From: an uncultured Opitutia bacterium
GTDB lineage: Bacteria > Verrucomicrobiota > Verrucomicrobiia > Opitutales > Puniceicoccaceae
Reading direction: 5' to 3'
Assembly (NCBI GenBank): GCA_913056175.1
Contig: CAJXLM010000017.1
Location: 1-53,426, forward strand
DNA: 53,426 bases
Shown: positions 30,242 through 46,368 of the stretch, piece by piece
Layout: every line of letters begins with the position of its first letter
Numbering within the stretch: the stretch's first letter is position 1
The notes under the pieces: model-generated
The model's database searches: none
What the model was told of the DNA's origin: nothing
Seen by the model: only the letters and a program-made list of their open reading frames with translations
Program-made: the position numbers and the translations under genes

Positions 30242-30244
30242 ACC

Positions 30245-31241: not shown

Positions 31242-32123
31242 TCAGGAGCGGCCGCCTCCCGCCCGCTGCCGGGCGATTTCCCCAATGCTGGCCCAATCGT
31301 CCTCGGCGTGGCCCTGCTCGAGGGCGGCCGTCATCATTTCCCGGACCACCGGGCCGAGGGCCGGCTCCGCCCCCACCTCCTCGCTGGCGGCCTGGGCGAG
31401 GCGGAGGTCCTTCAGGCCCAGCTCGGTGGTAAAGTTGGCCGGCTGGTAGCGTTTTTCCGCGATGAGCGGTCCGTAGGCCTGGAAGACCGGGCAGGCGAAG
31501 AGGGACTGGGAAAAGAAGGAGACAAAGGTTTCCCCGGAAATCCCGTGGCGTTCGGCGAGGGCGATGCTCTCCCCCATCATGGCGAGGGAGGAGGCGATCA
31601 TCTGGTTGACGGCCAGCTTGACGACGACCGCCTGGCGTGGGTTCTCGCCAAAGACAAAGGTGCGCTGGCCGACGGCCGCGAAGACCGGCTCGCAGCGCTC
31701 GAGATCGGCCCCGGCGCCCGCGGCAATCAGGAAGAGCTTGCCGGCGCGGGCGAGGTCCCCCCGGCCGGAGACCGGGCAAGCCACCCAGCGGGAACCGTGC
31801 TCCCCGTGGAGACGGGTCAACTCGTCGGCGAGCTCCAGGCTGATCGTGGAAGAGGAGATGTGGAGGGCCTCCGGGCGGAGGGCCGCCAGCAACCCACTCT
31901 CCACGAAGGCCGCCCGCACCGCCGCGTCGTTGGCGAGCATGGTGACCACCACCTCGCAATCGGCCAGCTCCCGCGGGTCGCCCGTGGCGGGGATCCCGCG
32001 CTCGGCAAAGGGCCGCCGCTTGTCCTCGCTGCGGTTGCACACCACCAGCTCGAGCCCGGCCGCCGCCAGGTTGTCCGCCATGCCGGCACCCATGGTACCG
32101 AGTCCGAGAATGCCAATCTTCAT
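31242..32123 (-). CDS. Beta-hydroxyacid dehydrogenase (3-hydroxyisobutyrate / tartronate-semialdehyde reductase family)
   Basis: This 293-residue NAD(P)-dependent enzyme begins MKIGILGLGTMGAGMADNLA (Rossmann GxGxxG). It has the substrate-binding motif ISSSTISLELADEL, WVACPVSGRGDLARAGKL (family normally PVSGG) and VVKLAVNQMIASSLAMMGES with the catalytic Lys in KLAVNQ. It overlaps the lacI stop by 4 bp (ATGA), so it is co-expressed with the regulator. It could reduce malonate semialdehyde, an end product of the inositol pathway, or tartronate semialdehyde. This is inference. VSGRGD in place of VSGG is a small deviation. Confidence 0.85.
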   Translation of the reverse strand: MKIGILGLGTMGAGMADNLAAAGLELVVCNRSEDKRRPFAERGIPATGDPRELADCEVVVTMLANDAAVRAAFVESGLLAALRPEALHISSSTISLELADELTRLHGEHGSRWVACPVSGRGDLARAGKLFLIAAGAGADLERCEPVFAAVGQRTFVFGENPRQAVVVKLAVNQMIASSLAMMGESIALAERHGISGETFVSFFSQSLFACPVFQAYGPLIAEKRYQPANFTTELGLKDLRLAQAASEEVGAEPALGPVVREMMTAALEQGHAEDDWASIGEIARQRAGGGRS

Positions 32124-33214
32124 GAGGAGGGGATCGAGGGCTTCAGGGAAGTTTCCGTGGCGCGGGGAGGATCGTCCACCGCGCCGCCAGGCGCCGGTCC
32201 ACTGCTGCGCCGGGCGACGAGGACCGGCTCCAGCTTCACGGTGAGCGGGCCCTCGCTTTCCCCCTGCATCTCGCCGAGGAGGATTTCGGCAGCCCGCGCG
32301 CCCAGCTGGACGTGGGGAATGGCGACGGTGGTGAGGGGCGGGTCAAACATCTCGGAGAAGGGCATCCCGTTGAAGCCGACCACCGAGACCTGGTCCGGCA
32401 CCCGCAGGCCCGCCTCCTTGAAGACCTGGACGGCCCCGATCGCGATGAGGTCGTTGCCCGCAACGATCGCAGTCGCGGAGGGACGCGCCGAGAGGAATTG
32501 GCGGGCGCAGCGGGCACCCTCCTCGCGGGAGAAGGCCGTGCACTCGCACTCCTCCGCCTCCAGCCCGTACTCCCTGACGTACCGGCGGAGGGCCTCGCGC
32601 CGCTCGAGGCCCTGGAGAACGTCGACGGGGCCGTTGAAATGGACGATCCGCCGGTGGCCGAGGGACGCGAGGTGGGCGACGGTCTGGCGGATGCCCTCGG
32701 CCTCGTCGTTGAGGACCTCGTGATAAAGGCCCCGCGCCCCGCGGACCGAACGGTTCAGGAGGACGAGGGAGACTCCCTGCTCGCGGCAGAAGTCGATCAC
32801 CGGATCCTCCAGAAAGGCGGAGGCGTAGATGAGTCCGTCCACCCGGCGCCCGAGGAGTCGCTCGACCTCCCGCCGGGCGAGATCGATCCGGTTGTCGGAG
32901 TAAGCGATGAGGGTGACGAGGCCGGCCTCGTCCATCCGGTTCTGGATGCCCCGGACAATCGGGGGAAAGATCGGGTTCTGGATGTCGGGAATGATCACGC
33001 CGACCGTGCGGGTGCGCCCCGTGCGCAGGCCCGTGGCGTAGACATCGCCGACATAGCCCATCTCCTCCGCCTTTGCCCGGATACGGGCGGCGAGGTCAGC
33101 ACTGATCAGGGATCGACCTTTCGGGCTGAGAGCCCGGGACACCGTGGAGGGGCTCACTCCAAAATGCTCGGCCAGGTCCTTGATACGAACCGGATCCTTA
33201 CGCGCCAAAACCAT
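32120..33214 (-). CDS. LacI-family transcriptional regulator, probable local regulator
   Basis: The 364-residue protein has an N-terminal helix-turn-helix (IKDLAEHFGVSPSTVSRAL, residues 11-29) and a hinge helix YATGLRTGRT (59-68) with the Leu that wedges into the central CpG of LacI-type operators. A periplasmic-binding-like sensor domain (GVIIPDIQNPIFPPIVRGI onward) follows. It is the only transcription factor I see in the window. The palindrome TGCAATCGATTGCA and its seven relatives, with central CG, have the form expected of a LacI-type operator. Link to them is inference. The region upstream (33215-33296) has no such site; GATAAT (33249-33254, minus strand) may be its -10 box. Confidence 0.92.
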   Translation of the reverse strand: MVLARKDPVRIKDLAEHFGVSPSTVSRALSPKGRSLISADLAARIRAKAEEMGYVGDVYATGLRTGRTRTVGVIIPDIQNPIFPPIVRGIQNRMDEAGLVTLIAYSDNRIDLARREVERLLGRRVDGLIYASAFLEDPVIDFCREQGVSLVLLNRSVRGARGLYHEVLNDEAEGIRQTVAHLASLGHRRIVHFNGPVDVLQGLERREALRRYVREYGLEAEECECTAFSREEGARCARQFLSARPSATAIVAGNDLIAIGAVQVFKEAGLRVPDQVSVVGFNGMPFSEMFDPPLTTVAIPHVQLGARAAEILLGEMQGESEGPLTVKLEPVLVARRSSGPAPGGAVDDPPRATETSLKPSIPSS

Positions 33215-33296: not shown

Positions 33297-34058
33297 CTAA
33301 CGAGCCGGGGCGGCTGTCAGGGCGGAGAGCGGGTCCTCCACCAGGCCGCAGTAGTGCCGGAGGAAGCGGGCCGCATCCGCCCCGTTGATGACCCGGTGGT
33401 CGTAGGTGAGATCGAGCGGGACCATTTCCACCGGCTGGAAGCACTCGCCATCCCAGACCGGTGCCACCTCCGAGCGGGTGATCCCGAGGATGGCCACCTC
33501 CGGCGGGTTGACGATCGGGCTGAAGGCCCGCCCCCCGATCCCGCCGAGGTTGGAGATCGTCATGCTGGCCTGTCCCATCGCGGTGAGCGGCAGGCGACCC
33601 TCGCGGGCCTGGGCGGAGAGGGAGAGGATCTCGGAGGCGATCTCCCAGACCCCCTTGCGATCGGCGTCGCGGATCACCGGGACGAGCAGGCCCTGCGGGG
33701 TGTCCACGGCCAGGCCGATGTCGCAGTACTCCCGGTACCAGAGAGTGGTCCCGTCGGCGGAGAGGGCCGTGTTGAAGAGCGGAAAATCCTCCAGGGCCCG
33801 GGCGAGGATCTTCACGTGGAAGGCCAGCCCGGTCAGCTTGGTCCCGCGCTCCTCCGCCTCGTCGCGCAGGGAGCGGCGGAATTCCTCGAGAGCCCCGACC
33901 GGGGCCCGGTCGTGGTGGGTGACCGCGGGGATCGTTTGGTGGGAGCGCAGCAGGTTGGCCGCGGCCACGCGGCCCAGCTTGCCGACCGCTTCCCCGCGGA
34001 CCGGCCCGCGAAACCAGGAGGTCTCCTCGCCGGTGGGTTGGATTGCCGCGTCCGCCAT
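33297..34058 (-). CDS. Bare E2 catalytic core of a 2-oxoacid-dehydrogenase-like complex
   Basis: The 253-residue protein from ATG 34058 is an acyltransferase of the 2-oxoacid dehydrogenase family (CAT-like fold). It has YCDIGLAVDTPQGLLVPVIRDAD, SMTISNLGGIGGRAFSPIVNPPEVAILGI and DLTYDHRVINGADAARFL with catalytic His221. Asn225 replaces the more common Asp of DHRxxDG; this variant also occurs, from memory, in Azotobacter E2p. There is no lipoyl or peripheral subunit-binding domain; these are on the separate protein at 35491-36564. Its ATG shares one base with the aldehyde dehydrogenase stop (TGATG). Confidence 0.88.
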   Translation of the reverse strand: MADAAIQPTGEETSWFRGPVRGEAVGKLGRVAAANLLRSHQTIPAVTHHDRAPVGALEEFRRSLRDEAEERGTKLTGLAFHVKILARALEDFPLFNTALSADGTTLWYREYCDIGLAVDTPQGLLVPVIRDADRKGVWEIASEILSLSAQAREGRLPLTAMGQASMTISNLGGIGGRAFSPIVNPPEVAILGITRSEVAPVWDGECFQPVEMVPLDLTYDHRVINGADAARFLRHYCGLVEDPLSALTAAPAR

Positions 34059-35488
34059 CACCAGTTCGTGGAGATGTACTGGGTTTCCATGAACTCGAAG
34101 ATGCCGGCGTGCCCGCCCTCGCGGCCGAGCCCGGACTGCTTGGTACCGCCAAAGGGAGCCGCCGGATCCGAGACCAACCCGCGGTTCAAGCCGACCATTC
34201 CGTAGTCGAGACGCTCGCTGATGCGGAGACCCTTGGCCATGTCCCGGGTAAAGACGTAGGCGACGAGTCCGTACTCCGTTGCGTTGGCGAGGCGGACAAC
34301 CTCTTCCTCGTCGGCAAAGGCCTGGATCGCGGCCACCGGGCCGAAGATCTCGTCGTGCATGCAGGCCGCCTCCGTGGGAACCCCCGAGAGAACCGTGGGC
34401 GGGTAGAAGAAACCCGGACCCTCCGGCGCCTCGCCCCCGCAGTGAACCCTCGCCCCGCGGGCGACCGCGTCCTTCACGAACTCGGCCACCTTGTCACGGG
34501 TGGCCGCGTTGACCAGCGGGCCGACATCCACGCCCGGCTCGAGACCGTTGCCCACTTGGAGGCCCTCCATGGCTTTGGTGAGCGCGGCGGTGAACTCTTC
34601 CTCGACCGACTCGTGCACGTAGATCCGGTTCGCGGCCGTACAGGCCTCGCCCATGTTCCGCATCTTCGCGACCATCGCGCCCTCGACCGCGGCCGGGATG
34701 TCGGCGTCCTTGCAGACGATGAAGGGAGCGTTCCCGCCCAGTTCCATGGCCGGGGTGATCACGTTGTCGGCGGCCTCCTTGAGCAGGATCCGCCCGACCT
34801 GGGTGCTCCCCGTAAAGGAGACCACCCGGGCCCGGTGGTCGTGCAGCATCTGGGAGACCGCCGGGCCGGAGCGCCGGGTCATGAGAACGTTGACCACGCC
34901 CGGCGGCACGCCGGCTTCCTCGAGGATCGGCATGAGCGCGAGCATGGTCAACGGGGTCTCCAGGGCTGGCTTGATGATGACCGGGCAGCCCGCGGCCAAG
35001 GCCGGGGCGATCTTGCGGGTGCCCATGGCGGCCGGGAAATTCCACGGGGTGACCAGCACGCCGATGCCCGCGGGCTTGTGGTGGACGAGGGTACGGGCCC
35101 CACTCGCCGGGGAGTGACCCATGTGGCCATCGATGCGGACGGCCTCCTCGGAGAACCAGCGGAAGAATTCCGTGGCGTAGGTCGCCTCTCCCATGGCGTC
35201 GGCGCTGGCCTTCCCATTCTCCAGGGTGATCAGCCGGGCGATCTCCTCGCGCTGGCCACTCATGATGTCGAAGGCCCGGCGCAGGATTTCCGCGCGTTCC
35301 CGGGGCTTGCGGGCCGCCCAGTCGGCGAAGGCCCCGTCCGCCGCGTCGAGCGCGGCGGCCACATCCTCCTCGGTGGCCGTGGCGACCTCGGCGAGGACGG
35401 ACTCGTCCGCCGGATTGTAAACCGGGGCGGTGGAGCCGTCGGAGGCGTCCCGCCACTCCCCGTTGATGTAGAGCTGGGTGTGATGCAT
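34058..35488 (-). CDS. NAD(P)-dependent aldehyde dehydrogenase, succinate-semialdehyde-dehydrogenase-like
   Basis: The 476-residue protein starts MHHTQLYINGEWRDA. It has the full ALDH set: Asn150 in TPWNFP, SFTGSTQVGR, general base Glu249 in AMELGGNAPF, catalytic Cys283 in GEACTAANRIY and EIFGPVAAI. The ending PFGGTKQSGLGREGG resembles GabD-type enzymes. It is encoded between the lipoyl protein and the E2 core, 2 bp after the former and overlapping the latter. It could oxidise malonate semialdehyde or another aldehyde from the pathway; methylmalonate-semialdehyde dehydrogenase (IolA) is not encoded here. A longer open frame upstream runs through the lipoyl gene and was rejected. Confidence 0.92.
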   Translation of the reverse strand: MHHTQLYINGEWRDASDGSTAPVYNPADESVLAEVATATEEDVAAALDAADGAFADWAARKPRERAEILRRAFDIMSGQREEIARLITLENGKASADAMGEATYATEFFRWFSEEAVRIDGHMGHSPASGARTLVHHKPAGIGVLVTPWNFPAAMGTRKIAPALAAGCPVIIKPALETPLTMLALMPILEEAGVPPGVVNVLMTRRSGPAVSQMLHDHRARVVSFTGSTQVGRILLKEAADNVITPAMELGGNAPFIVCKDADIPAAVEGAMVAKMRNMGEACTAANRIYVHESVEEEFTAALTKAMEGLQVGNGLEPGVDVGPLVNAATRDKVAEFVKDAVARGARVHCGGEAPEGPGFFYPPTVLSGVPTEAACMHDEIFGPVAAIQAFADEEEVVRLANATEYGLVAYVFTRDMAKGLRISERLDYGMVGLNRGLVSDPAAPFGGTKQSGLGREGGHAGIFEFMETQYISTNW

Positions 35489-35490
35489 GA

Positions 35491-36564
35491 TCAGAGAAGT
35501 TGGTAGAGGGGGTTGCGAAGGCGGCGGGCCACCCCGTCGAGAATCGCGGCGGCCCCGGCAGTGTTTAAAATACCCGAACGCGCTTGGAGGACAAGGGAAA
35601 GCACCTCCCCTTCCGCCGGCAAAAGCCAGAGGTCCGCCCCGCCCTCCGGCGGGCCCTCCACCTCGCGCAGGCTTGATCCCGTGGCGTCGATCACCCGGAG
35701 ATCGGGCGTCCCCTCGGCGATCGGTTCCGCGGCTCCCAAACGGGAACGGTCGGGGTCCGCGAAAAGTCGAGGTTCCCCATGAAGACCGACCACCTCGACC
35801 CGGAGGGCCCCGGTCGTGTCCGGACCCTCCCGGCGCCACGCACCCCCCACCAACGAAGCGAGGGCGGCCCGGCGAGCGGACAGACCGCCGAGACGGGCGC
35901 AGAGCTCCTGCCAGCCCCCGGCTTCCGTCACTGCGCGCAGGGAGAGCCGAGTGGGGCCGGTCGCCGGCGCGGGCGCGGTCGAGTGCTCGGCGAGGGCCGC
36001 TTCCACATCGCGGGCGTGCAGCGGTTCCCGGCCCACGGCGGCGCGAATCCCGGCAAGGTCGAGCCCGTGCGCGGCGGCGATCGCCTTGGCCTTCGGGGAG
36101 GCGAGGACGCGGCCGGGGAACGACGCGGGCGGCGTGGAGGGAGGGGCCGCGGGAGGGGACGCGGGTTCGGGCGGCAGGATCTCGCGGGGCTCGGTGGCGG
36201 GTGCGGCCTCCGCAGCCGGGGCCGGGATGGGCTCGGAGCCGGAGTCGGAGGAAGCGTCCTCCCCGCCGGGCGCGGCGCCGGCCGTGCCCTCCCCCGCCCC
36301 CGCGGCCGCGGCGGCGGCTTCCTCGGCGGTCGCCACCACTTCCGCGACCACCTCCCCGACCGGGACTTCCGCGCCCGCCTCGAAGAGGAGACGGGCGATG
36401 TAGCCATCCTCGCGGGCCTCGATCTCCTGCACCGACTTGTCGGTCTCCACCTCCATGACCACATCCCCGGGGGCGACCCGGTCGCCGGCCTCGACCCGCC
36501 ACGCGGCGATCACTCCACTGTCCTGGGCCATGCCCAGGGCGGGCATGAATAGATCCTTAGGCAC
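35491..36564 (-). CDS. Lipoyl-domain protein with subunit-binding domain and degenerate E2-like core
   Basis: Start is GTG at 36564 (MPKDLFMPALGMAQ), overlapping the E1-beta stop by 8 bp. Residues 1-80 form a lipoyl domain with Lys43 in METDKSVQEIE-type context. Residues 82-150 are an Ala/Pro/Glu-rich swinging linker. About 155-193 resembles a peripheral subunit-binding domain (SPKAKAIAAAHGLDLAGIR). Residues 205-357 have no DHRxxDG; the C-terminus (LSLVLQARSGILNTAGAAA) looks like a decayed E2 end. This recalls the E3-binding protein (protein X) of mitochondrial complexes. The acyltransferase is a separate gene (33297). No E3 gene is adjacent. Confidence 0.85.
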   Translation of the reverse strand: MPKDLFMPALGMAQDSGVIAAWRVEAGDRVAPGDVVMEVETDKSVQEIEAREDGYIARLLFEAGAEVPVGEVVAEVVATAEEAAAAAAGAGEGTAGAAPGGEDASSDSGSEPIPAPAAEAAPATEPREILPPEPASPPAAPPSTPPASFPGRVLASPKAKAIAAAHGLDLAGIRAAVGREPLHARDVEAALAEHSTAPAPATGPTRLSLRAVTEAGGWQELCARLGGLSARRAALASLVGGAWRREGPDTTGALRVEVVGLHGEPRLFADPDRSRLGAAEPIAEGTPDLRVIDATGSSLREVEGPPEGGADLWLLPAEGEVLSLVLQARSGILNTAGAAAILDGVARRLRNPLYQLL

Positions 36565-37555
36565 GCGCCACCTCCCCCCGGATCAGCTGGAGCGCGCGCT
36601 CGACGGTGCGGGCCACGTCCGGCACCGTCTGGTCCTCGAGGGCCGGCGAGAAGGGCACCGGCACATCCCATGCCCCGAAACGGGTGACCGGGGCGTCGAG
36701 GTGGTAAAAGGCCTTGTCGGCGATCCGGCTGGCGATCTCCGCGGTGGCCCCGTAGCTCTGGTGGCCCTCGTCGAGCACGATCACCCGACCGGTCTTCCGG
36801 ACCGACGCGAGAATGGTGTCCTCGTCGAGGGGTACCAGCGTGCGCACATCGATGACGTCGGCACTGTAGCCCTCCGCGCGGAGACCCTCGGCGGCTTCCT
36901 CGGCGACCTGGACCATGGAGCTGGTGGCCACCAGCGAGAGGTCCTCCCCTTCCTGGAGCCGGTTGGCCTGGCCAAAGGGGATCAACTCCTCTTCCTCCGG
37001 CTCGGGGACGGGACCCTTTGCCTGGTACATCAGCTTGTCCTCGAAGATCACCACCGGGTTGTCGTCGCGCACGGCGCTCTTGAGGAGACCCTTTGCCTCG
37101 CGGGGAGAGGAGGGCAGGGCCACCTTCAGGCCCGGGATGTGGGCGACGAGAGCCTGCAGGCTCTGGGAGTGCTGGGCGGCGGAGCGGCGGGTGGCCCCGA
37201 GATTGGTCCGCAGGACCATGGGCACCTTGAGCTTCCCCCCGCTCATGTAGCTCTGCTTGGCGGCTTGGTTGCAGAGTTGGTCCATGACCAGGAAGAGGAA
37301 GTCCCCGAACATCAGGTCGACGATCGGGCGGGTGCCGGTGAGGGCGGCCCCGACCGCCATGCCGACAAAGCCCGGCTCCGAGATCGGGGTGTCGATGATC
37401 CGCTCCGGGCCGAACTCCTCCACCAACCCGGAGAGCACCTTGAAGGGCGTGCCGGCCTCGGCGACATCCTCGCCCCAGAGGAAAACGGTGGGATCGCGCC
37501 GCAGTTCCTCGGCGATGGCTTCGTTGACGGCCTGGGAAAATGTGATGGTGCGCAT
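36557..37555 (-). CDS. ThDP-dependent dehydrogenase E1 beta subunit
   Basis: This 332-residue transketolase-like subunit starts MRTITFSQAVNEAIAEELRR and has VFLWGEDVAEAGTPFKV, DTPISEPGFVGMAVGAALTG, RPIVDLMFGDFLF, GLKVALPSSPREAKGLLK and VIDVRTLVPLDEDTI, all standard for E1-beta of pyruvate, acetoin or branched-chain dehydrogenases. It would pair with E1-alpha (10 bp upstream) to form the alpha2beta2 decarboxylase. Substrate class (acetoin, pyruvate, branched chain) cannot be fixed. An in-frame extension to 37633 overlaps E1-alpha and adds a Pro-rich segment, so ATG 37555 was chosen. Confidence 0.92.
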   Translation of the reverse strand: MRTITFSQAVNEAIAEELRRDPTVFLWGEDVAEAGTPFKVLSGLVEEFGPERIIDTPISEPGFVGMAVGAALTGTRPIVDLMFGDFLFLVMDQLCNQAAKQSYMSGGKLKVPMVLRTNLGATRRSAAQHSQSLQALVAHIPGLKVALPSSPREAKGLLKSAVRDDNPVVIFEDKLMYQAKGPVPEPEEEELIPFGQANRLQEGEDLSLVATSSMVQVAEEAAEGLRAEGYSADVIDVRTLVPLDEDTILASVRKTGRVIVLDEGHQSYGATAEIASRIADKAFYHLDAPVTRFGAWDVPVPFSPALEDQTVPDVARTVERALQLIRGEVARA

Positions 37556-37565
37556 GGTTCTCGGG

Positions 37566-38606
37566 TCAGGAGGCGTAGACGTGATCGCGGGCGGCCTCGG
37601 CCGGTGGGTAGGGGGCCTCGAGGGCGTACTCAACCGCCTCTTCCGCCTCCCGGCTGATGGCCTCGCCGATGGCGGTGAGCTCCTCCGCGGTGGCGATGCC
37701 CCTCTCGAGGAGGACCTCGCCGAAGAGCGGGATCGGGTCGCGCTCCGCCTTCCAGTGTTCCTCCTCCTCCTTGGTCCGGTAGTAGGAGCGGTTGATGTCG
37801 CCGACGTGGTGGCCGAAGTAGCGGTAGGTCTTCAGGGCGAGGAAGGTGGCCCCCTCCCCGGCCCGCGCCCGGGCCACGGCCCGGTCGGCCGCGGCCATCA
37901 CCGCGAGCAGGTCCTGCCCATCGACTTCCTCCGCCTCGATCCCGAAGGCGCGGGCGCGCTCGAGCATGTTCCCGGCGAGCATCTCGTCGATGTGGGTGTA
38001 CTCCCCGTACTGGTTGTTCTCGCAAGCGTAGATGACCGGCAGTTTCCAGAGGGCGGCCATGTTCATGACCTCGTAGAGAATGCCCTGGCCGAGGGCCCCG
38101 TCCCCGAGGAAACAGACGGCCACGCCGCCGGTGCCGAGATACTTGGCGGAGAAGGCCGCCCCCGTGGCGATCCCGGTGCTGCCCCCGACGATCGCATTGG
38201 CCCCGAGGTTGCCGTTCTCCTGGTCGGCGATGTGCATGGAACCGCCCTTCCCGTGACAGTAGCCCTCCTCCTTGCCGAGGAGCTCGCAGAACATCGGGCG
38301 GAAGGTGGCCCCCCGGGCCACGCAATGGCCGTGACCGCGGTGGGTGCTGGTGATCTTGTCCCGCTCATCGAGAGCCTCGCACACGCCGACCGCGGAGGCC
38401 TCCTGGCCGCTGCTCATGTGGGTGAGCCCGGGCATCTTGGCCTGCAGGTAGAGCTCGTTGGCATTGTCCTCGAAGGCGCGGATCCGCACCATCTGGCGGT
38501 AGGCCTCGAGCAGTTGCTCGGGGGTGCGCCCGGCGGAGTCCACCGTTTTCCTGGCTGCCTTGCGGGCCGTCTTCGTGGTCTTGCGAGTGGTTTTCCTGGC
38601 TGTCAT
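37566..38606 (-). CDS. ThDP-dependent dehydrogenase E1 alpha subunit with a Lys/Arg/Thr-rich tail
   Basis: The 346-residue subunit has the ThDP motif GDG (168-170) to ENN (196-198), RGHGH (90-94) and GGSMHIAD, all standard for E1-alpha of the AcoA/PdhA type. The first 21 residues contain nine Lys/Arg and seven Thr in a repeating pattern (TARKTTRKTTKTARKAARKT), unlike ordinary E1-alpha. A terminator-like hairpin with an 8-U tract ends 8 nt before the ATG. It starts the E1-alpha, E1-beta, lipoyl, ALDH, E2 gene run. With the split E2 this forms a 2-oxoacid- or acetoin-dehydrogenase-like complex. Confidence 0.92.
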   Translation of the reverse strand: MTARKTTRKTTKTARKAARKTVDSAGRTPEQLLEAYRQMVRIRAFEDNANELYLQAKMPGLTHMSSGQEASAVGVCEALDERDKITSTHRGHGHCVARGATFRPMFCELLGKEEGYCHGKGGSMHIADQENGNLGANAIVGGSTGIATGAAFSAKYLGTGGVAVCFLGDGALGQGILYEVMNMAALWKLPVIYACENNQYGEYTHIDEMLAGNMLERARAFGIEAEEVDGQDLLAVMAAADRAVARARAGEGATFLALKTYRYFGHHVGDINRSYYRTKEEEEHWKAERDPIPLFGEVLLERGIATAEELTAIGEAISREAEEAVEYALEAPYPPAEAARDHVYAS

Positions 38607-38614
38607 GGAGAATC

Positions 38615-38696
38615 AAAAAAAAGGTGGCACAGCGGCAGGCGGGCCTTCAGCGTCGGCAACCCCTCACCTCGCCGCGATCCTCGCCCGCGCTGTGCC
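38615..38696 (-). terminator. Intrinsic terminator/attenuator between the M24 gene and E1-alpha
   Basis: Read on the minus strand, GGCACAGCG (38696-38688) pairs with CGCTGTGCC (38634-38626) around a 53-nt loop that can form a further GCGGGC/GCCCGC stem. ACC follows, then eight T (38622-38615). The E1-alpha ATG is only 8 nt further on. So E1-alpha transcripts must pass through this structure or begin inside it. Confidence 0.75.
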
Positions 38697-38711
38697 AAAA
38701 GGTTTCCGGGC

Positions 38712-40007
38712 TCAGTAGGCGTTCGCGACGAACAGTTCCTCGGCCGGGAAGAGCGTGATCACCCGGCAGCCGTCCGCGGTCACCACGACCTCCTCCTCGA
38801 TGCGGGCGGCACCGTTCCCGTCGGCCGCGGCGCAGTAGGTCTCCAGCGCGAAGACCATCCCCTCCTTGATCTCGGAGGGACTCTCCATGGAGGTGAGCCG
38901 GCTGATGATCGGGCGCTCGTGGAGGGCGACCCCGAGACCGTGCCCGAACTGGAGCCCGAAGGCGGCCATCTCGCTGGGGAAGCCGATCTCCTCGGCGGTC
39001 GGCCAGACGGAGGCAATCCGGTCGGTGGTCATGCCCGGACGGACCAGCTCGATGGCCTGGTCCAGCCACTCCCGTGCCTTCTTGTAGGCATCCGCCTGGC
39101 TCTGGCTGTACCGGCCCACGTTGAGGGTGCGGTAGTAACAGGTGCGGTAGCCCATGAAGGACTGGATGATGTCGAAGAAGGCCTGGTCGCCCGGGCGGAG
39201 CATCCGGTCGGTGAAGTTGTGCGGGTGCGGACTGCAGCGCTCCGCGGAGACCGCGTTGATCGCCTCCACGTCGTCGGAGCCGTGTTCGTAGAGGAACTTG
39301 TTGACCATGCCGACGAGGTCGTTCTCGCGGATGCCCGGCTTGAGATGGTCCGCGATGAGCTGGTACGCCCCGTCGACCATGGCAGCCGCCTTGTTCAGGA
39401 GCATGATCTCATCGATGTTCTTGATCTCGCGGGCGGCCAGCATGACCTGCTGCCCGTCGCGAACCTCGAGGCCTTCGGCCTCGAGCGCCCGCAGCATGGG
39501 CGGCTCGATGAAGTCGACCCCGACCGGCATGTCCGCCAGTCCGTGCTCGCGGAGCAGGCCGGCGATCTCCTTGGCGAACTGGGCGAAGAGGCCCGCCTCT
39601 TCCGGCACGGAGCCGCGCAGGCCGAGCATGCCCGCCCGCCAGTGGTCCTGGGGCAGCCACGGGCTGTAGATCCGGTGGTGGGCCGCCGCCGAGCCGAAGT
39701 CCCAATGGTAGGGGTCCTCCTCGCCGGCCACCAGGCAGAAACGACAGATCTTGTCCCGCGACCACTCCCCGATCACCGAGCCGGTGATGTACCGGATGTT
39801 GTTGTTGTCGAAGCAGAGGAGCGATCCGAGGTCGGAAGCCCGCAGGGACTGACGGGTCCGGCCAAGACGGTAGTCGCGCAAGCGGTCGAACTGGATCCGG
39901 TTCTCGAAGTCGACCGACATGTTGCCGGGACTCGCGATCGGGCCGGACCAATTCCAGTGCGGATCCGTAATGCTATCGTTTGCAGGGTGGGAGGATGAAG
40001 TGTCCAT
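38712..40007 (-). CDS. M24-fold (creatinase/Xaa-Pro peptidase/DddP-like) protein lacking two metal ligands
   Basis: The 431-residue protein has an N-terminal creatinase-like domain (FDRLRDYRLGRTRQSL, LLCFDNNNIRYITGSV) and a C-terminal pita-bread domain. Of the five canonical metal ligands, His356 (FGHGLG), Glu389 (ALETY) and the Glu near 404-406 (IEEEV) are present, but the two Asp positions are Ile281 and Tyr291 (within FDIIQSFMGYRTCYYRT). It is thus probably not a metallopeptidase; creatinase is a metal-free member. Start may be ATG 40007, or ATG 39920 (MSVDFENRIQF), because an operator-like site lies at 39971-39984. Confidence 0.8.
   Translation of the reverse strand: MDTSSSHPANDSITDPHWNWSGPIASPGNMSVDFENRIQFDRLRDYRLGRTRQSLRASDLGSLLCFDNNNIRYITGSVIGEWSRDKICRFCLVAGEEDPYHWDFGSAAAHHRIYSPWLPQDHWRAGMLGLRGSVPEEAGLFAQFAKEIAGLLREHGLADMPVGVDFIEPPMLRALEAEGLEVRDGQQVMLAAREIKNIDEIMLLNKAAAMVDGAYQLIADHLKPGIRENDLVGMVNKFLYEHGSDDVEAINAVSAERCSPHPHNFTDRMLRPGDQAFFDIIQSFMGYRTCYYRTLNVGRYSQSQADAYKKAREWLDQAIELVRPGMTTDRIASVWPTAEEIGFPSEMAAFGLQFGHGLGVALHERPIISRLTSMESPSEIKEGMVFALETYCAAADGNGAARIEEEVVVTADGCRVITLFPAEELFVANAY
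39971..39984. promoter_or_regulatory. LacI-type operator-like site (12 of 14) at the M24 gene 5' end
   Basis: TGCTATCGTTTGCA differs from the consensus at positions 4 and 9 and keeps the central CG. If translation starts at 39920 it lies 51 bp upstream of the gene; if at 40007 it lies inside codons 9-13. Weaker than the sites at 5503 or 46421. Confidence 0.4.
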
Positions 40008-40055: not shown

Positions 40056-40865
40056 TCACTTCGTGACCCAGCCGCCGTCGATGGAGATCATCTGGCCAGT
40101 CATGTAGTCGCTGTCGTCACTGGCGAGGAAGGCGGCGGTGCCGACGACGTCCTTCGGATAGGACAGGCGCTTGATGATGAGATTGTTCTCGACGATGTCG
40201 TCGTAGGCCTGGCCCTCACGCTCCTTGAAGCCGATGTCGACGAGGTCCTTGTCGAGCTGTTCCCAGAGGGGGGTCACCACGACGCCGGGAGCGTAGGCGT
40301 TCACGGTGATGTTATGCTCGGCGAGGCCGAGGGCGCCGCACTCGGTCAGGGCGAGGCAGCCGTACTTGGAGGTGCAGTAGACGGTGACATCGACGAGCGG
40401 CTTGCGCGAGGCGATGGAGCCCACGTTGATCAGCTTGTAGGGGTGATCCTCCATGGGGCCTTGCTCGATCATGCGCCGGGCGGTCTCCTGCATGCCCAGC
40501 CACATCGCCTTGGTGTTCACGTTCATGATGAAGTCCCAGTTTTCTTCATCGATATCCATGAAGAAGCGAGGCTTGTTCACGCCGGCGTTGAAGAGTGCGA
40601 CGTTGATGCTACCAAAAGCCTCGGCGGTCGCGGCGACCGCGGCTGCATTGTCCTCGCGCTTGGTCACGTCGAGCTTCACAGCCACCGCCCTGCCGTTGCC
40701 TTTCCCATTGATGTGGTCGGCAACCTTCTGGGCCCCTTCCTCGTTGAGGTCCCCGAGGCAGACGTTGGCGCCCAGTTCGGCGAAGTGGACGGCGTTGGCG
40801 GCACCCATGCCCTGGGCGGCTCCGGTGATGAGGATGTTCTTTCCCTTCAGGCGATCGGGGTCCAT
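40056..40865 (-). CDS. Short-chain dehydrogenase/reductase (acetoin reductase/polyol dehydrogenase-like)
   Basis: This 269-residue classical SDR has TGAAQGMGAANAVHFAE (NAD-binding), FNAGVNKPR, NVGSIASRKP with the catalytic Ser, VYCTSKYGCLALT (YxxxK), YAPGVVVTPLWEQLDKD and DYMTGQMISIDGGW. The PLWEQLDK segment is seen in acetoin/sorbitol dehydrogenases. A Shine-Dalgarno (AAAGGAAC) precedes the ATG, unlike most genes in the plus-strand importers. It lies between thuA-like and M24 genes in the leftward operon of importer E. Confidence 0.9.
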   Translation of the reverse strand: MDPDRLKGKNILITGAAQGMGAANAVHFAELGANVCLGDLNEEGAQKVADHINGKGNGRAVAVKLDVTKREDNAAAVAATAEAFGSINVALFNAGVNKPRFFMDIDEENWDFIMNVNTKAMWLGMQETARRMIEQGPMEDHPYKLINVGSIASRKPLVDVTVYCTSKYGCLALTECGALGLAEHNITVNAYAPGVVVTPLWEQLDKDLVDIGFKEREGQAYDDIVENNLIIKRLSYPKDVVGTAAFLASDDSDYMTGQMISIDGGWVTK

Positions 40866-40895: not shown

Positions 40896-41615
40896 TTAGC
40901 GGTTGCTGTTCTTGCGACCGGAGGCCGCCCAAAGGATGCCGCGCCGGGTCATTTCCCGGACGGTGGGATGCTCGAGGTCTTCCACGCGGTGGCCGATCGA
41001 GTGGTAGAAAATCCGGCCCTGGTCCCAGCGCCGCTTCCAGGCGATGGGGATTTCCGCGCCCTCGATCCACCAGAGGTGTTCCCCGCTGAAGACGGTGGTG
41101 GCGAGGACCTCGTTGGTCGGATCGGTCAGCATGTAGTACTGCTCGGAGTGGAGCCGGAAGCTGGAGAGGCCCTCCATGATTGGGTCGTTCGGCTTCTTCA
41201 CGAGAACTTCGTAGTCCACGAAGTCCTCCGAGGGCACGGGATTGTCCGGCCAGCCCGGCGGGTGCGCCACGAACTGGCCACCGATGAGGAAGTGGTAGGT
41301 GGGGTGGTCGCGGAAGGCGTCCCCCATGTGTCCGTGCCAGCCGGCGAGGCCGACTCCCTCGGAGACCACCTGGATGAGGCCGTTCTCCTCCTCGCGGTTG
41401 ATGTTGCCGAACTCCGGCTGGTGGCTGGAGCGGGCGCTCGACCAGATGGGGAGGATGACATCGTAGCCGCGCATCCGGTCGACCTCGGCGAGCGGGGCCA
41501 GCGTGTCGAAGACATCGACGGTGACCCCCTCGGGCTCGAGGAGACCTTGGGTCCATTGGACGAAGCGGGCGGGGTCGTGGCCCTCCCAGCCCCCGGCAAA
41601 GACAGCAGCATTCAT
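40896..41615 (-). CDS. ThuA-like domain protein
   Basis: The 239-residue protein from ATG 41615 (MNAAVFAGGWEGHDPARFV) is a ThuA/glutamine-amidotransferase-fold protein. GVGLAGWHGHMGDAF and FIGGQFVAHPPG-like segments (HFLIGGQFVAHP) are usual for the family. It also has EQYYMLTDPTNEVLATTVF and a closing GRIFYHSIGHRVEDLEHP. ThuA proteins take part in trehalose/disaccharide or 3-keto-sugar catabolism. Its start overlaps the stop of the ATPase gene by 4 bp (ATGA). A longer frame starting inside the ATPase gene was rejected. Confidence 0.87.
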   Translation of the reverse strand: MNAAVFAGGWEGHDPARFVQWTQGLLEPEGVTVDVFDTLAPLAEVDRMRGYDVILPIWSSARSSHQPEFGNINREEENGLIQVVSEGVGLAGWHGHMGDAFRDHPTYHFLIGGQFVAHPPGWPDNPVPSEDFVDYEVLVKKPNDPIMEGLSSFRLHSEQYYMLTDPTNEVLATTVFSGEHLWWIEGAEIPIAWKRRWDQGRIFYHSIGHRVEDLEHPTVREMTRRGILWAASGRKNSNR

Positions 41616-43162
41616 GATTCGGGTGAGGTGTTGGAATCGTGCGCGGTGGAGGCCAGTTCCCCCACCCCGGTAATGGCACGGCCCACGCTTTCCTCGCTGA
41701 TCTCCTCGCCGACCAGCTCGGAAACAATGCGGCCCTCGTAAAGGGAGAGGACCCGGTCGGACACCCGGATGATCTCGGGCATTTCCGAGGAGACCACGAT
41801 GATCGCGTAGCCCTCGGCAGCGAGGTCGCGGAGGAGCTGGTGGATCTGGGCCTTCGAGCCCACGTCGATCCCGCGGGTCGGCTCGTCCACGAGGAGGATG
41901 CGGGGCTCGGTGGCCAGCCACTTGCCGATGACCACCTTCTGCTGGTTCCCACCGGAGAGGTTGTCGACCGGGTAGGAGGGTCCGGGCGCCTTGATGGACA
42001 GCTTTTCCCGGTATTCCTCAAAGAGCCGCTTCTCGCGGCTCGGGTGCGCGAGGTTGCCCCACTGGTTCATCACGGTCATGCCAAGATTGCGGTCGCAGGC
42101 CAGGGAAAGGGCCAAGCCGTTTTCCTTGCGGTCCTCGGGGATGAGCGCAATGCCCCGGGCGATCGCCTCCTCCGGGTTGTGCTTGTCGAGGCGCTCGCCG
42201 GCCACCCGGATCTCGCCGCGGTAGCACTTCCGGAGGCCGAAGATGGCTTCGAGGATCTCGGTGCGTCCGGACCCGATCAGGCCGTAGAAGCCGAGGATCT
42301 CGCCGGAGCGCAGCTCGAAGGAGACCTCGCGGAAGGCACCCCGGCTCCACAGGTCACTCACCTGGAGGACTACATCCTCGCCGGAGCGGAAATCGGTGCG
42401 AGCGGCGTGCGAAACCTTGCGACCGATCATCCGCTCGACCACGGAATCCTCGTCGGTCTCCGCGGTCTCGAGCACGCCCTGCGGGGTGCCGTCGCGGAGC
42501 ACGGTGATCCGGTCGGAGAGCTCGAAGATCTCGTCCATCTTGTGGGAGATGTAGACGATACCGACCCCCTGGGAGCGCAGGTCCCGGATGATCTCGAAGA
42601 GCAGGAGGCGCTCGCGGTCGGTCAGCGAGGTGGTCGGCTCGTCGAAGATGACCACGCGGGTCTCGTAAACGAGGGCCCGGGCGATCTCCACGAGCTGCTT
42701 GTGGGCCACGGTAAGGTTGCGGATGAGGGCGCGCGGGGAGAACTGGCAGTTCAGGCGGTCGAGCAGGCGGCGCGAGTCCGCGTAGAGCTTCTTCCAATCG
42801 ACCCGTCCGAGGGACTTGCGGGGGAGCTCGCCGAGGAAGAGGTTCTCGGCGACGCTGAGGTCCTCGACGAGGGAGAGTTCCTGGTGGATCATGGCGATCC
42901 CCCGCCGTTTCGCGTCCTGCGGGGACTGCAGGGCCACGGTCTCGCCGCCGATGGAAACGCTTCCTTCCTCCGGCTGGTAGATGCCGTCGATCACCTTCAT
43001 GAGGGTCGACTTGCCGGCGCCGTTTTCCCCGACGAGGGCCATGACCTCGCCCGGGCGCACCTCGAAGGAAACCCCGTCGAGGGCCTTGACCCCGGGGAAG
43101 GACTTGGAAACGCCCTCTACGGAGAGGACGGGCGTTTTCGAGGGTTCCGCGGGCTGGATCAT
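41612..43162 (-). CDS. Importer E: two-domain sugar ABC ATPase, RbsA-like
   Basis: This 516-residue fused ATPase from ATG 43162 (MIQPAEPSKTPVLSVEG) has N-terminal Walker A GENGAGKST, signature NLTVAHKQLVEIARAL and Walker B VVIFDEPTTSL. The C-terminal half has the degenerate P-loop GLIGSGRTEIL, LSGGNQQKVVIGKWL and ILLVDEPTRGIDVGSKAQ. It serves two different permeases, and its start overlaps the second permease stop by 4 bp (ATGA). It is the second dual ATPase of the window besides importer B. Confidence 0.93.
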   Translation of the reverse strand: MIQPAEPSKTPVLSVEGVSKSFPGVKALDGVSFEVRPGEVMALVGENGAGKSTLMKVIDGIYQPEEGSVSIGGETVALQSPQDAKRRGIAMIHQELSLVEDLSVAENLFLGELPRKSLGRVDWKKLYADSRRLLDRLNCQFSPRALIRNLTVAHKQLVEIARALVYETRVVIFDEPTTSLTDRERLLLFEIIRDLRSQGVGIVYISHKMDEIFELSDRITVLRDGTPQGVLETAETDEDSVVERMIGRKVSHAARTDFRSGEDVVLQVSDLWSRGAFREVSFELRSGEILGFYGLIGSGRTEILEAIFGLRKCYRGEIRVAGERLDKHNPEEAIARGIALIPEDRKENGLALSLACDRNLGMTVMNQWGNLAHPSREKRLFEEYREKLSIKAPGPSYPVDNLSGGNQQKVVIGKWLATEPRILLVDEPTRGIDVGSKAQIHQLLRDLAAEGYAIIVVSSEMPEIIRVSDRVLSLYEGRIVSELVGEEISEESVGRAITGVGELASTAHDSNTSPES

Positions 43163-44148
43163 ACCTGTTCGGAGAGCCGCACCTTTCGGCTGCTCAGTTG
43201 CTTGTCGAGGATGAGGACGGCGATGAGGATGCCGCCAAGGATGACGTACACGTAGAAGGCTTGCACCTGCATCATGTTCATTCCGTTGCGGAGGATGGCG
43301 ATCGAGAGGATGCCGGCAAAGCTGCGGAGGATGGACCCGTAGCCGCCCGCCAGCTTGGTGCCCCCGAGGACCACCCCGGTGATCACCCAGAGCTCGTAAT
43401 CGCGGCCGAGATTGGGAGTGGCCGCCCCCATCTGGGAGCTGAGGGTGACCCCGGCGAGCCCGGTGAGACCCCCGAGGATGAGGTAGTTCACGAACATGTG
43501 CGGGCCCACCCGGATGCCGGCGTTCACCGCCGCCTCGGGATTGCCGCCAACGGCGAAGGTGTTGCGGCCGTGCACGGTCCGGGTGAGGAGCAGGTGGACG
43601 AGCGCGACGAGGACGAGGAAAAGGATGGCGATGGTGGGCACGGCGAGCGGCCCGAGGGGCACCGAGCTCATCCCGATGTCCGAGAAGAGGAAGTTCATCG
43701 CGAAGAGCGACTGCTCTTGCGTGTAGACGAAGACGAGGCCGCGGATCCCGATCATCGCCCCGAGGGTGACAATGAAGGCGTTCACCCCGGTCTTCCACAC
43801 GAGGAATCCGTTCAGGCCGCCGAGGGCCATCCCGGCGAGGATGGCCATGAAGAAGGCGCCGAGAATCGCCCAGTCGCCCAACTGGGCGAAGATCGGCCAG
43901 GACTGGGCGTCGACCATGACCACCGCGCAGAAGGCGAGAATCGCGCCCACGCTGAGGTCGATGTTCCCGTTGATCATCACGAGGGTCATGCCAAGGGCGA
44001 TGATCCCGAGGGTGGACGCCTGGATGAGGATATTCTCGAAATTCTGGATGTCGAAGAAGTTGGGCGCGAAGAGGCTGAAGAAGACCGTGATCGCGATGAG
44101 GAAGGCCCAGATGGGCTGCTCGAGGAAGAAGGACTTGAACTTATCCAT
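43159..44148 (-). CDS. Importer E: CUT2 permease 2, RbsC-like
   Basis: This 329-residue inner-membrane permease has ALGMTLVMINGNIDLSVGAIL, WKTGVNAFIVTLGAMIGIRGL, NTFAVGGNPEAAVNAGIRVG and GVVLGGTKLAGGYGSIL. It has about eight to ten membrane segments. With permease 1 (44167) it probably forms a heterodimeric channel, in place of the usual RbsC homodimer. The genes are separated by 18 bp. Confidence 0.92.
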   Translation of the reverse strand: MDKFKSFFLEQPIWAFLIAITVFFSLFAPNFFDIQNFENILIQASTLGIIALGMTLVMINGNIDLSVGAILAFCAVVMVDAQSWPIFAQLGDWAILGAFFMAILAGMALGGLNGFLVWKTGVNAFIVTLGAMIGIRGLVFVYTQEQSLFAMNFLFSDIGMSSVPLGPLAVPTIAILFLVLVALVHLLLTRTVHGRNTFAVGGNPEAAVNAGIRVGPHMFVNYLILGGLTGLAGVTLSSQMGAATPNLGRDYELWVITGVVLGGTKLAGGYGSILRSFAGILSIAILRNGMNMMQVQAFYVYVILGGILIAVLILDKQLSSRKVRLSEQV

Positions 44149-44166: not shown

Positions 44167-45333
44167 TCAGGCGTAGGGCGAGAGCAGGCGCCCGCGGCGG
44201 GCCCCCACATCCAGCCACACCGCGACGATGATGACGACCCAAGTGACCAGCCACTGGGTCCAGTAGGAAAAGCCGAGCAGGAGCAGGCCGTTCTGGATGA
44301 AACCGAGGAGGAGCACCCCGATGACGGTCTTGCTGATCTTGCCGGAACCGCCGAGGAGGCTGGCCCCGCCCACGATGATCGCAGCGAGGACGAGCAATTC
44401 GTAGCCCTTGCCGACGGTGTTCTGCGAGCCCATGACGCGGCTGCCCATGACGACGGCCGCGCACCACACGCAGAAGGCGGAGATCAGGTAGGAAAAGAAG
44501 ACGGTCTTGACCCGGTTGATTCCGGAGTACTCGGCGGCGGAGGCCTTGCTGCCGATCGCGAAGATCCGGCGGCCGAAGGTCGTCCCGTGGAGCACCCACT
44601 CGAGAATGATGGCCAGGCCGAGGAAAAGGAGGATGGGGACGGCGATCCCGGCGATCTCGCCCCGCCCGAAAAAGGCAAACCAAGTATCGGACTGGTTGGT
44701 GATGTCGGCGTTCTGCCCGCCGCTGTAGATGAGGGTGAAGCCCTGGATGGCCGAGAGCATCCCGAGGGTCACGATCAGGGAGTTCAACCGGAGGACTCCC
44801 ACGAGAGTACCGTTGATCGCCCCGCAGGCGAGGGCGGCCACGAGTGCTACGGCCATGGCGGGGGCCGGCCCGATTTTGTCGTGCAGATCCACGACGAGAA
44901 TGGTCGCGAAGGAGAGCATCGACCCCACGGAGAGGTCGAGGTTCCCGCTGATCACGACAATGGTCACCCCGAGCGCCATGATCCCGATGATCGAGGACTG
45001 CCGGAGGACACTGGAAAAGTTGTCGAAACTGAGAAAGCGGTCCGAGGCGAGGGAGAAGCCCACCATCGCAATCACGAAGGCGAGAAGGATCCCCTGCTTG
45101 GCGAGCACCTTCGTCCAGGAGAAGTCGGGGGAATCGAGCCCGAGGAGGGCACGAAAGCGGGCCCCGATCCCACCGGCCACGACAGCTTCTTCCGCTTCGT
45201 GGAGGGCTTCCTGCGATTGCTGGTGCACCGGGTCGGGACCGGCTTCCGGGGGACCGGAGGCGCGCGGCGGTTGCGCCGCCGCGCGCCGGGTCCCGGAAGT
45301 CAGCTCGCCGGAGGAATCGTCCGAGGATGGCAT
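44167..45333 (-). CDS. Importer E: CUT2 permease 1, RbsC-like with a long N-terminal tail
   Basis: This 388-residue permease has a hydrophilic cytoplasmic N-terminus of about 75 residues (Ser, Pro, Ala, Glu/Gln-rich, HQQSQEALHEAEEA). Membrane segments with ALGVTIVVISGNLDLSVGSM, GVLRLNSLIVTLGMLSAIQG, IFAIGSKASAAEYSGI and AAIIVGGASLLGGSGKI follow. It is about 60 residues longer than permease 2, which it resembles only at these motifs. It is 45 bp downstream of the binding-protein gene. Confidence 0.92.
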   Translation of the reverse strand: MPSSDDSSGELTSGTRRAAAQPPRASGPPEAGPDPVHQQSQEALHEAEEAVVAGGIGARFRALLGLDSPDFSWTKVLAKQGILLAFVIAMVGFSLASDRFLSFDNFSSVLRQSSIIGIMALGVTIVVISGNLDLSVGSMLSFATILVVDLHDKIGPAPAMAVALVAALACGAINGTLVGVLRLNSLIVTLGMLSAIQGFTLIYSGGQNADITNQSDTWFAFFGRGEIAGIAVPILLFLGLAIILEWVLHGTTFGRRIFAIGSKASAAEYSGINRVKTVFFSYLISAFCVWCAAVVMGSRVMGSQNTVGKGYELLVLAAIIVGGASLLGGSGKISKTVIGVLLLGFIQNGLLLLGFSYWTQWLVTWVVIIVAVWLDVGARRGRLLSPYA

Positions 45334-45378: not shown

Positions 45379-46368
45379 TCAGAACACCGGCTTGGTGTAC
45401 TGGTCCATGTTCTCCTGGGTGATCTTCGGGGTGTCGAAGTAGTTGGACTTCGGCACGTCCTCACCCTTGACCACGGCCACCGCGGTGCGGAGCGCGTTGC
45501 GGGCGTCCTCCACGGGGCTCTGGTAGATGGAGCCCCAGTACTCGCCGCGGCCCATGGCCTCGTAGCCCACCGCGAAGTTGGTCGCGCCCACGAAGATGAT
45601 CTCGTCGGCCCGGCCCGCCGCCTTCGCGGCGTTCAGGGCACCCACGCCCATGTTGTCATCCCCGGAGTAGACCCCGTCGATGTCGTCGTACTTGGTCAGG
45701 AAAGTCTCCATGACGGTCTGCGACTTTTCGCGGTTCCAGTCACCGGGCTGGGTCTCAATGAGCTCGACATTCGGGCAGACCTCGGGGAGGCGCTCCTCAA
45801 AGCCCTGGGCCCGCTCGATGGCAGTCGTGTACCCGGGCATGCCCGCGATTTGCACGATCACGGCTTCGTCCTCGATGCCCATCTCCGTGAAACGGTCGCA
45901 CATGATCTCCGCGGAGTAGATCCCCTGGGTGATGTTGTCCGGACCGGAGAAGGAGGCGATGAACTGCTGGCCCTCCTCGGCAATCTGCGAGTTGGTCACG
46001 ATCACCGGGATGCCGGCCCGCTCCGCCTGGCGCACCACCGGCACGACCGCCTTGCCCTGGGTCGGCCAGATGATGATCGCGTCCACATCCTGCTGGATGA
46101 GGTCCCGCATCTGGTTGATCTGCTTCTCCACGTCCCCCTGCGCGTCGAGGACGATCGCCTCCACCTCGGGGTTGTTGTTGGCCGCCTCGATGAAGGCCTG
46201 CTCGTAGGTCGTCTGGTAACTATCGATCCCCACGTTGTTCTGGGTGATGCCGATGGTGATCACTTCGTCTTCTTGCGCCACGGCCGTGGCCACCAGCGCC
46301 GCCGGCAGGAGTCCGGCCACGGCGCGGACCACCGTCCGCGCCAGCTTGGAGGTAGGTTGGGATAACAT
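45379..46368 (-). CDS. Importer E: periplasmic sugar-binding protein, RbsB-like
   Basis: The 329-residue protein from ATG 46368 has a signal peptide (MLSQPTSKLARTVVRAVAGL, cleavage after TAVAQ). The mature domain begins EVITIGITQNNVGIDSYQTTY. IIIWPTQGKAVVPVV, GIPVIVTNSQIAEEG and VYSGDDNMGVGALNAAKAAG are Peripla_BP_4 marks. A real Shine-Dalgarno (AAAGGAAG) lies about 8 nt before the ATG. Two LacI-type operators lie 53 and 162 bp upstream. First gene of a leftward run of at least seven genes up to the terminator at 38615. Confidence 0.92.
   Translation of the reverse strand: MLSQPTSKLARTVVRAVAGLLPAALVATAVAQEDEVITIGITQNNVGIDSYQTTYEQAFIEAANNNPEVEAIVLDAQGDVEKQINQMRDLIQQDVDAIIIWPTQGKAVVPVVRQAERAGIPVIVTNSQIAEEGQQFIASFSGPDNITQGIYSAEIMCDRFTEMGIEDEAVIVQIAGMPGYTTAIERAQGFEERLPEVCPNVELIETQPGDWNREKSQTVMETFLTKYDDIDGVYSGDDNMGVGALNAAKAAGRADEIIFVGATNFAVGYEAMGRGEYWGSIYQSPVEDARNALRTAVAVVKGEDVPKSNYFDTPKITQENMDQYTKPVF

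Follow-up and report, generated by a model that had tools for sequence, protein, structure and literature searches.

The question raised by this locus is what a protein of the M24 fold, in which one residue of the metal site has been replaced, is doing in the middle of a set of catabolic genes. In the window, the whole stretch of 53,426 nucleotides that was analysed, the protein (P0001) is encoded within a 14-gene array on a single strand, from a periplasmic binding protein (SBP; 46368) to a beta-hydroxyacid dehydrogenase (31242). The genes follow in the order SBP, two permeases, ATPase, ThuA, SDR, M24, E1alpha, E1beta, lipoyl protein, aldehyde dehydrogenase, E2, LacI, and dehydrogenase, mostly with small overlaps or gaps of less than 50 bases, the widest being 105 bases after the M24 gene and 82 before LacI. 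The CUT2/ribose-type match of the SBP is compatible with a polyol substrate for the importer, and is not proof of one; as for the nitrogenous polyol suggested in the earlier note, no evidence was found that the compound contains nitrogen.

Features of the array and of the metal-site region of P0001. Positions are those of the window.
Feature	Position	Strand	Remarks
Periplasmic binding protein (SBP), Peripla_BP_4	45379-46368	minus	Nearest solved structures CUT2/ribose-type sugar-binding
ABC permease, BPD_transp_2	44167-45333	minus
ABC permease, BPD_transp_2	43159-44148	minus
Sugar-type ABC transporter ATP-binding protein	41612-43162	minus	Two ABC domains
ThuA-domain protein	40896-41615	minus
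SDR dehydrogenase	40056-40865	minus	Closest curated model acetoin reductase/2,3-butanediol DH, below cut-off
Cys-type M24 protein P0001	38712-40007	minus	ATG start, 431 aa
First Asp ligand through GYRTC290YYRT	39115-39174	minus	D279 codon 39171-39173 to R293 codon 39129-39131
C290 codon	39138-39140	minus	GYRTCYYRT motif match 39127-39152
2-oxoacid dehydrogenase E1 alpha, PDH-like	37566-38606	minus
E1 beta	36557-37555	minus	More likely start: ATG at 37555
Lipoyl-domain protein	35491-36564	minus	No Pfam match in remainder
Aldehyde dehydrogenase, SSADH-like	34058-35488	minus	527 bits, under 646-bit cut-off
E2 acyltransferase catalytic domain	33297-34058	minus
LacI-family regulator	32120-33214	minus
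3-hydroxyisobutyrate-dehydrogenase-family (beta-hydroxyacid) dehydrogenase	31242-32123	minus

Some further features of the array were observed. The E2 component is split: its lipoyl-domain protein and its catalytic domain are encoded by separate genes on either side of the aldehyde dehydrogenase gene, an order also present on Roseobacter plasmids. Between the M24 and E1alpha genes (38600-38720, minus strand) the transcript can fold into a long hairpin, in which GGCACAGCG pairs with CGCUGUGCC, followed by eight U (fold z-score -2.4). It was not listed by a simple terminator scan; it could be a partial terminator setting the ratio of M24 to dehydrogenase. In addition, myo-inositol genes adjoin the operon at 28385-31174 and about 24.0-28.4 kb, comprising an IolD over its cut-off, an IolE-like gene, and weaker matches to IolG, IolC, and IolB.

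The open reading frame at 38712-40007 had been read from its letters as an M24-fold protein, and this identification is borne out. Pfam PF00557 (Peptidase_M24) covers residues 204-411 (E 4e-36, 125 bits against a gathering threshold of 23), and the predicted structure has the pita-bread fold that goes with this family. No NCBIfam equivalog model exceeded its cut-off for P0001; the top scores were for the DMSP lyase DddP (NF043017, 113 bits against 600) and PepQ (73 against 630), and the ectoine hydrolase DoeA/EutD model (TIGR02993) was likewise well below its threshold (58 against 613). Public annotation of plasmid homologues reads 'Xaa-Pro peptidase' or 'M24 metallopeptidase'.

In alignments to Pyrococcus prolidase and DddP, FFD279 is matched with the first of the two canonical Asp residues, and C290 with the second, the bridging one. 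The phmmer alignment is ungapped, GDQAFFDIIQSFMGYRTCYYRT of the query lying over GDLVVIDLGALYNHYNSDITRT of Pyrococcus furiosus prolidase, and a profile alignment gives the same register; the first Asp is therefore retained as D279, and the second is replaced by C290. The ligand positions are thus D279, C290, H356, E389, and E404, and the two second-shell histidines conserved for catalysis in M24 enzymes, H261 and H363, are both kept. The distance from D279 to C290 is 11 residues, equal to that between Asp260 and Asp271 of E. coli aminopeptidase P. The canonical metallopeptidase set of D, D, H, E, E is consequently incomplete in P0001 by one residue, the second Asp. The earlier note had held that both Asp ligands were lost, as Ile281 and Tyr291. 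Neither assignment survives: I281 matches Asp297 of DddP, an extra, non-canonical ligand that is absent from methionine aminopeptidases (PMC4108388), the earlier reader having followed DddP numbering, and Tyr291 is one residue out of register, the residue concerned being C290. The same note's retention of His356, Glu389, and a Glu near 405 does agree with the alignments.

In 84,980 species genomes scanned, 315 stretches encoding relatives of P0001 were found, of which 80 were kept at about 65-74% identity. In an alignment of 90 rows (P0001, its own locus L001, and 88 others at 37-74% identity), D279, C290, H356, E389, E404, and H261 are identical in every row. H363 is identical in 87, the exceptions being two actinobacterial plasmid copies (W) and one haloarchaeal copy (Y). 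Motif positions 286-288 and 290-294 are identical in all 90 rows and T289 in 89, so the segment GYRTCYYRT, previously described as conserved-looking, is indeed conserved. Across 35 Cys-type rows, reaching down to 30% identity, none of the five ligand positions varies, and a Natrialba protein keeps them too; with 43 of 231 M24-domain columns invariant, such five-fold invariance would arise by chance with a probability of about 2e-4, on the assumption that columns are drawn independently. Position 281 is I or L in the close family and Y in more distant members.

Here, the Cys-type M24 subfamily is defined by D279-x10-C290-Y-Y-R-T together with H356, E389, and E404. This pattern was found in all 90 rows, in L118, and in a second M24 protein of L031, and it spans Alpha- and Gammaproteobacteria, the marine HIMB59 clade, Actinobacteria, and haloarchaea. 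The suggestion of a separate subfamily therefore holds, as a distinct and conserved group. No relatives were found in viral contigs. On sequence evidence, the Cys-type M24 proteins are a widespread, uncharacterised family in which one of the five ligands has been swapped, always for Cys. A full-text literature search found no published study of the family or operon, and the HIMB59-clade papers it returned do not name the gene; an AEGEAN169 paper infers creatine use for one clade.

Additional M24 genes were noted in several genomes. The second Cys-type M24 of L031 (L031:15192-16469) is at the same locus, is 30% identical, reads GYKTCYYRT, and keeps all five ligand positions, and a beta-keto acid cleavage enzyme gene lies between the two. 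In two lineages, a second, degenerate M24 is found near the Cys-type gene (L032:6736-7926, plus strand; L095:7367-8485, minus strand), with E, Q, H, Q, G at the ligand places. Outside the window, the same genome encodes an ectoine-hydrolase-like M24 (G000:C35:16594-17757) in which all five ligands are replaced; it scores 454 bits to TIGR02993, below the 613 cut-off.

Taking both Asp ligands as lost, the earlier note had favoured a metal-free enzyme hydrolysing C-N bonds in the manner of creatinase or ectoine hydrolase. These enzymes share the M24 fold and a small-molecule role with P0001 (VIA-align Z 35.2 for EutD 6twj and 32.5 for creatinase 1kp0), and one ligand is indeed replaced. However, the two ectoine-hydrolase-type proteins in the alignment (L003 and L115), one of them from the window's own genome, carry E, P, Y, I/M, and S/T at the five ligand places and so keep none of the ligands, against four of five in P0001 (the column-by-column comparison covering the ectoine-hydrolase type). 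These four are invariant in every Cys-type member examined, and ligands that were no longer needed should have drifted across bacteria and archaea. The metal-free proposal is therefore set aside as improbable, and on this contrast in ligand retention P0001 is probably still a metal enzyme.

Cys at the metal centre also raises the idea of a cysteine hydrolase, in which C290 would be the nucleophile and the other ligands would hold a structural metal or none. C290 is invariant and takes the place of a metal-centre residue, so by homology it should face the active site. Nothing further speaks for this idea, all other metal ligands being kept, and we know of no precedent for a cysteine-nucleophile hydrolase in the M24 fold; it is considered very unlikely.

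Comparisons of predicted structure and phylogeny place P0001 more closely. In a first AF2 model, built with 29 close homologues, region 246-290 had pLDDT below 50; it was redone with three distant rows added. The second model (pLDDT 84.5, pTM 0.85) has a two-domain M24B fold and matches M24B structures across residues 26-431 by Foldseek and VIA-align. The top four Foldseek matches are DddP structures (TM 0.79), and the VIA-align Z-scores are 35.3 for DddP and 35.1 for prolidase, with EutD level with both; given these near-ties, structure alone offers no choice among the three. In the tree, Cys-type rows group with DddP and rhizobial betaine-cluster M24 proteins with support of 98/94 when the motif columns are left out. 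Support for the Cys-type rows as a single clade is 99/95 with all columns and 57/18 with the motif columns removed and fewer rows. By sequence, tree, and predicted fold, P0001 is nearest to DddP and the betaine-cluster M24 proteins.

This placement allows for a DddP-like lyase, carrying out beta-elimination on a betaine- or sulfonium-type compound. DddP (4s01, 4rzy, 4b28) resembles P0001 over the full chain, shares the first Asp, the His, and both Glu ligands, and is the nearest characterised enzyme by phmmer; in four Hyphomicrobiales loci, EgtB-EgtD genes, of trimethylhistidine chemistry, adjoin the M24 gene. Likewise, the Sinorhizobium and Rhizobium proteins of the tree group (L112 and L114) are catabolic and linked to solute importers, in clusters with betaine transporters and methyl- or Rieske-type enzymes. 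The differences are, however, at catalytic positions. Identity to DddP is 23-25%, the score for the DddP model is far under its cut-off, and DddP has the bridging Asp where P0001 has Cys. Its extra ligand Asp297 is I or L in the close Cys-type family, its proposed base Asp377 corresponds to H363, and DddP rows carry W at the H261 position and D at the H363 position. The rhizobial proteins, at 25-29% identity, retain every Asp ligand, the additional one of DddP type among them, and the importer in the window looks sugar-type, not betaine-type. A DddP-like elimination is thus regarded as unlikely, and prolidase-like metal-assisted hydrolysis is preferred because the catalytic residues differ from those of DddP, the His positions H261 and H363 being prolidase-like.

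M24B prolidases and aminopeptidase P (1pv9, 1wy2, E. coli PepP) share with P0001 the ligands D279, H356, E389, and E404, the 11-residue ligand spacing, and both catalytic His, and they differ in having the bridging Asp rather than Cys290. With an M24B fold over its full length, P0001 could be taken for the ordinary Xaa-Pro peptidase that the annotation of its plasmid homologues implies. Against this, Asp260 and Asp271 mutants of E. coli aminopeptidase P are reported to be inactive (PMC10377022), and it is the bridging Asp that has been lost. In addition, unlike prolidase and aminopeptidase P genes, Cys-type M24 genes are found in catabolic operons and not with peptide genes; the small-molecule setting is conserved, and the annotated loci show neither peptidase nor peptide transporter genes close by. 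An Xaa-Pro peptidase is hardly credible here, and the public family name, Xaa-Pro peptidase or M24 metallopeptidase, probably conveys the wrong function.

The setting recurs in other lineages. Plasmids of Rhodobacteraceae, Phaeobacter, Tritonibacter, and Marinovum carry the same genes in the same order, SDR-M24-E1a-E1b-lipoyl-ALDH-E2, beside an importer of the same kind. Among the 88 other loci, the 26 HIMB59-type loci (each containing the M24 gene by construction of the search) all have E1alpha, E1beta, and SDR genes, and 24 have ALDH. The other 62, which are not independent and include some short contigs, have E1alpha in 25, E1beta in 22, ALDH in 18, and a hydroxyacid dehydrogenase in 33; E1 is present in 23 of the 46 with at least 4 kb downstream. 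In Streptomyces, the M24 gene is beside ALDH, E1, and E2 genes, and in Natrialba, E1 genes are about 5 kb away. This recurring context speaks for a catabolic step feeding an acyl-CoA-forming dehydrogenase, rather than protein turnover, and supports the small-molecule role earlier proposed from the operon.

Importers near the Cys-type M24 vary with lineage (sugar ABC, TRAP, MFS), and neighbours elsewhere include BKACE, cobalamin-independent methionine-synthase-like proteins, EgtB-EgtD, and TauE. Such variety suggests use of the enzyme in several upstream routes, or on an intermediate that these have in common. The EgtB and EgtD homologues, of ergothioneine type, lie directly upstream of the M24 gene in L083, L091, L096, and L101, in three of which there is also a methionine-synthase-like gene. 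Inositol genes flank the M24 operon in HIMB59-type loci too. As the HIMB59 operon sits inside inositol genes, the M24 protein was considered as a stand-in for IolD; this was rejected, a true IolD being present in seven of eight HIMB59-type genomes searched and a partial match in the eighth. Candidate pathways (2,3-butanediol/acetoin, pantothenate, alkylpyrazine, carnitine-type, and ergothioneine) each fit some neighbours and none fits all, and none had enough support to be adopted.

The favoured explanation, held with middling confidence and drawn from sequence comparison, is that P0001 is a metal-dependent small-molecule hydrolase with Cys in place of the bridging Asp. P0001 would be cytosolic and would hold one or two divalent metals through D279, C290 (as thiolate), H356, E389, and E404; the metal site would activate water, with H261 and H363 assisting as in aminopeptidase P. 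The bond cleaved, in a small catabolic intermediate, would be an amide, another C-N bond, or a carbonyl bond of similar kind. This intermediate would derive from a compound taken up by the linked sugar-type ABC importer and oxidized by the SDR, and its products would pass to the aldehyde dehydrogenase and to the dehydrogenase complex of 2-oxoacid (or acetoin) type. The fold, the ligand pattern, its conservation, and the gene neighbourhood are what the analysis shows; that metal is bound, that Cys is one of its ligands, that the reaction is a hydrolysis and not an elimination, and that the steps run in this order is what we infer. Several observations count against this explanation: H363 is W or Y in the actinobacterial and haloarchaeal relatives, over half of the non-HIMB59 loci have no E1/E2 genes near the M24 gene, and DddP, a lyase, is among the nearest known enzymes by PDB sequence search and tree. 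Furthermore, since loss of the corresponding residue, Asp271, is reported to inactivate E. coli aminopeptidase P (PMC10377022), C290 may disable the metal chemistry.

As to how the gene came to be in this genome, GYR[ST]CYYRT was found in one of 388 genomes sampled from the phylum of the window, the window's own, and in five of 115 sampled around an alphaproteobacterial member, the chosen centre included. The nearest proteins to P0001 are in proteobacterial MAGs (73-74% identity), and Roseobacter plasmids encode an SDR and an SBP with 71-85% identity to those of the window, the SDR itself 80-85%. From this rarity and these relatives, lateral acquisition is the simplest account.

P0001 probably takes part in degrading a small nutrient that the cell imports. 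It is proposed, tentatively and with some doubt, that the D-to-C exchange gives a working dinuclear or mononuclear site with a Cys thiolate bridge, of which no description in a pita-bread fold was found in the literature searched, and that the enzyme carries out one step in degrading a metabolite common in sea and soil, also within the streamlined HIMB59 (AEGEAN-169) clade. The family is a natural test of thiolate replacing the bridging aspartate in a dinuclear metal site. Given its 65-74% identity across several bacterial groups, its presence in HIMB59, and its conserved catabolic gene set, the Cys-type M24 is a likely marker for a pathway, so far undescribed, of abundant ocean bacteria.
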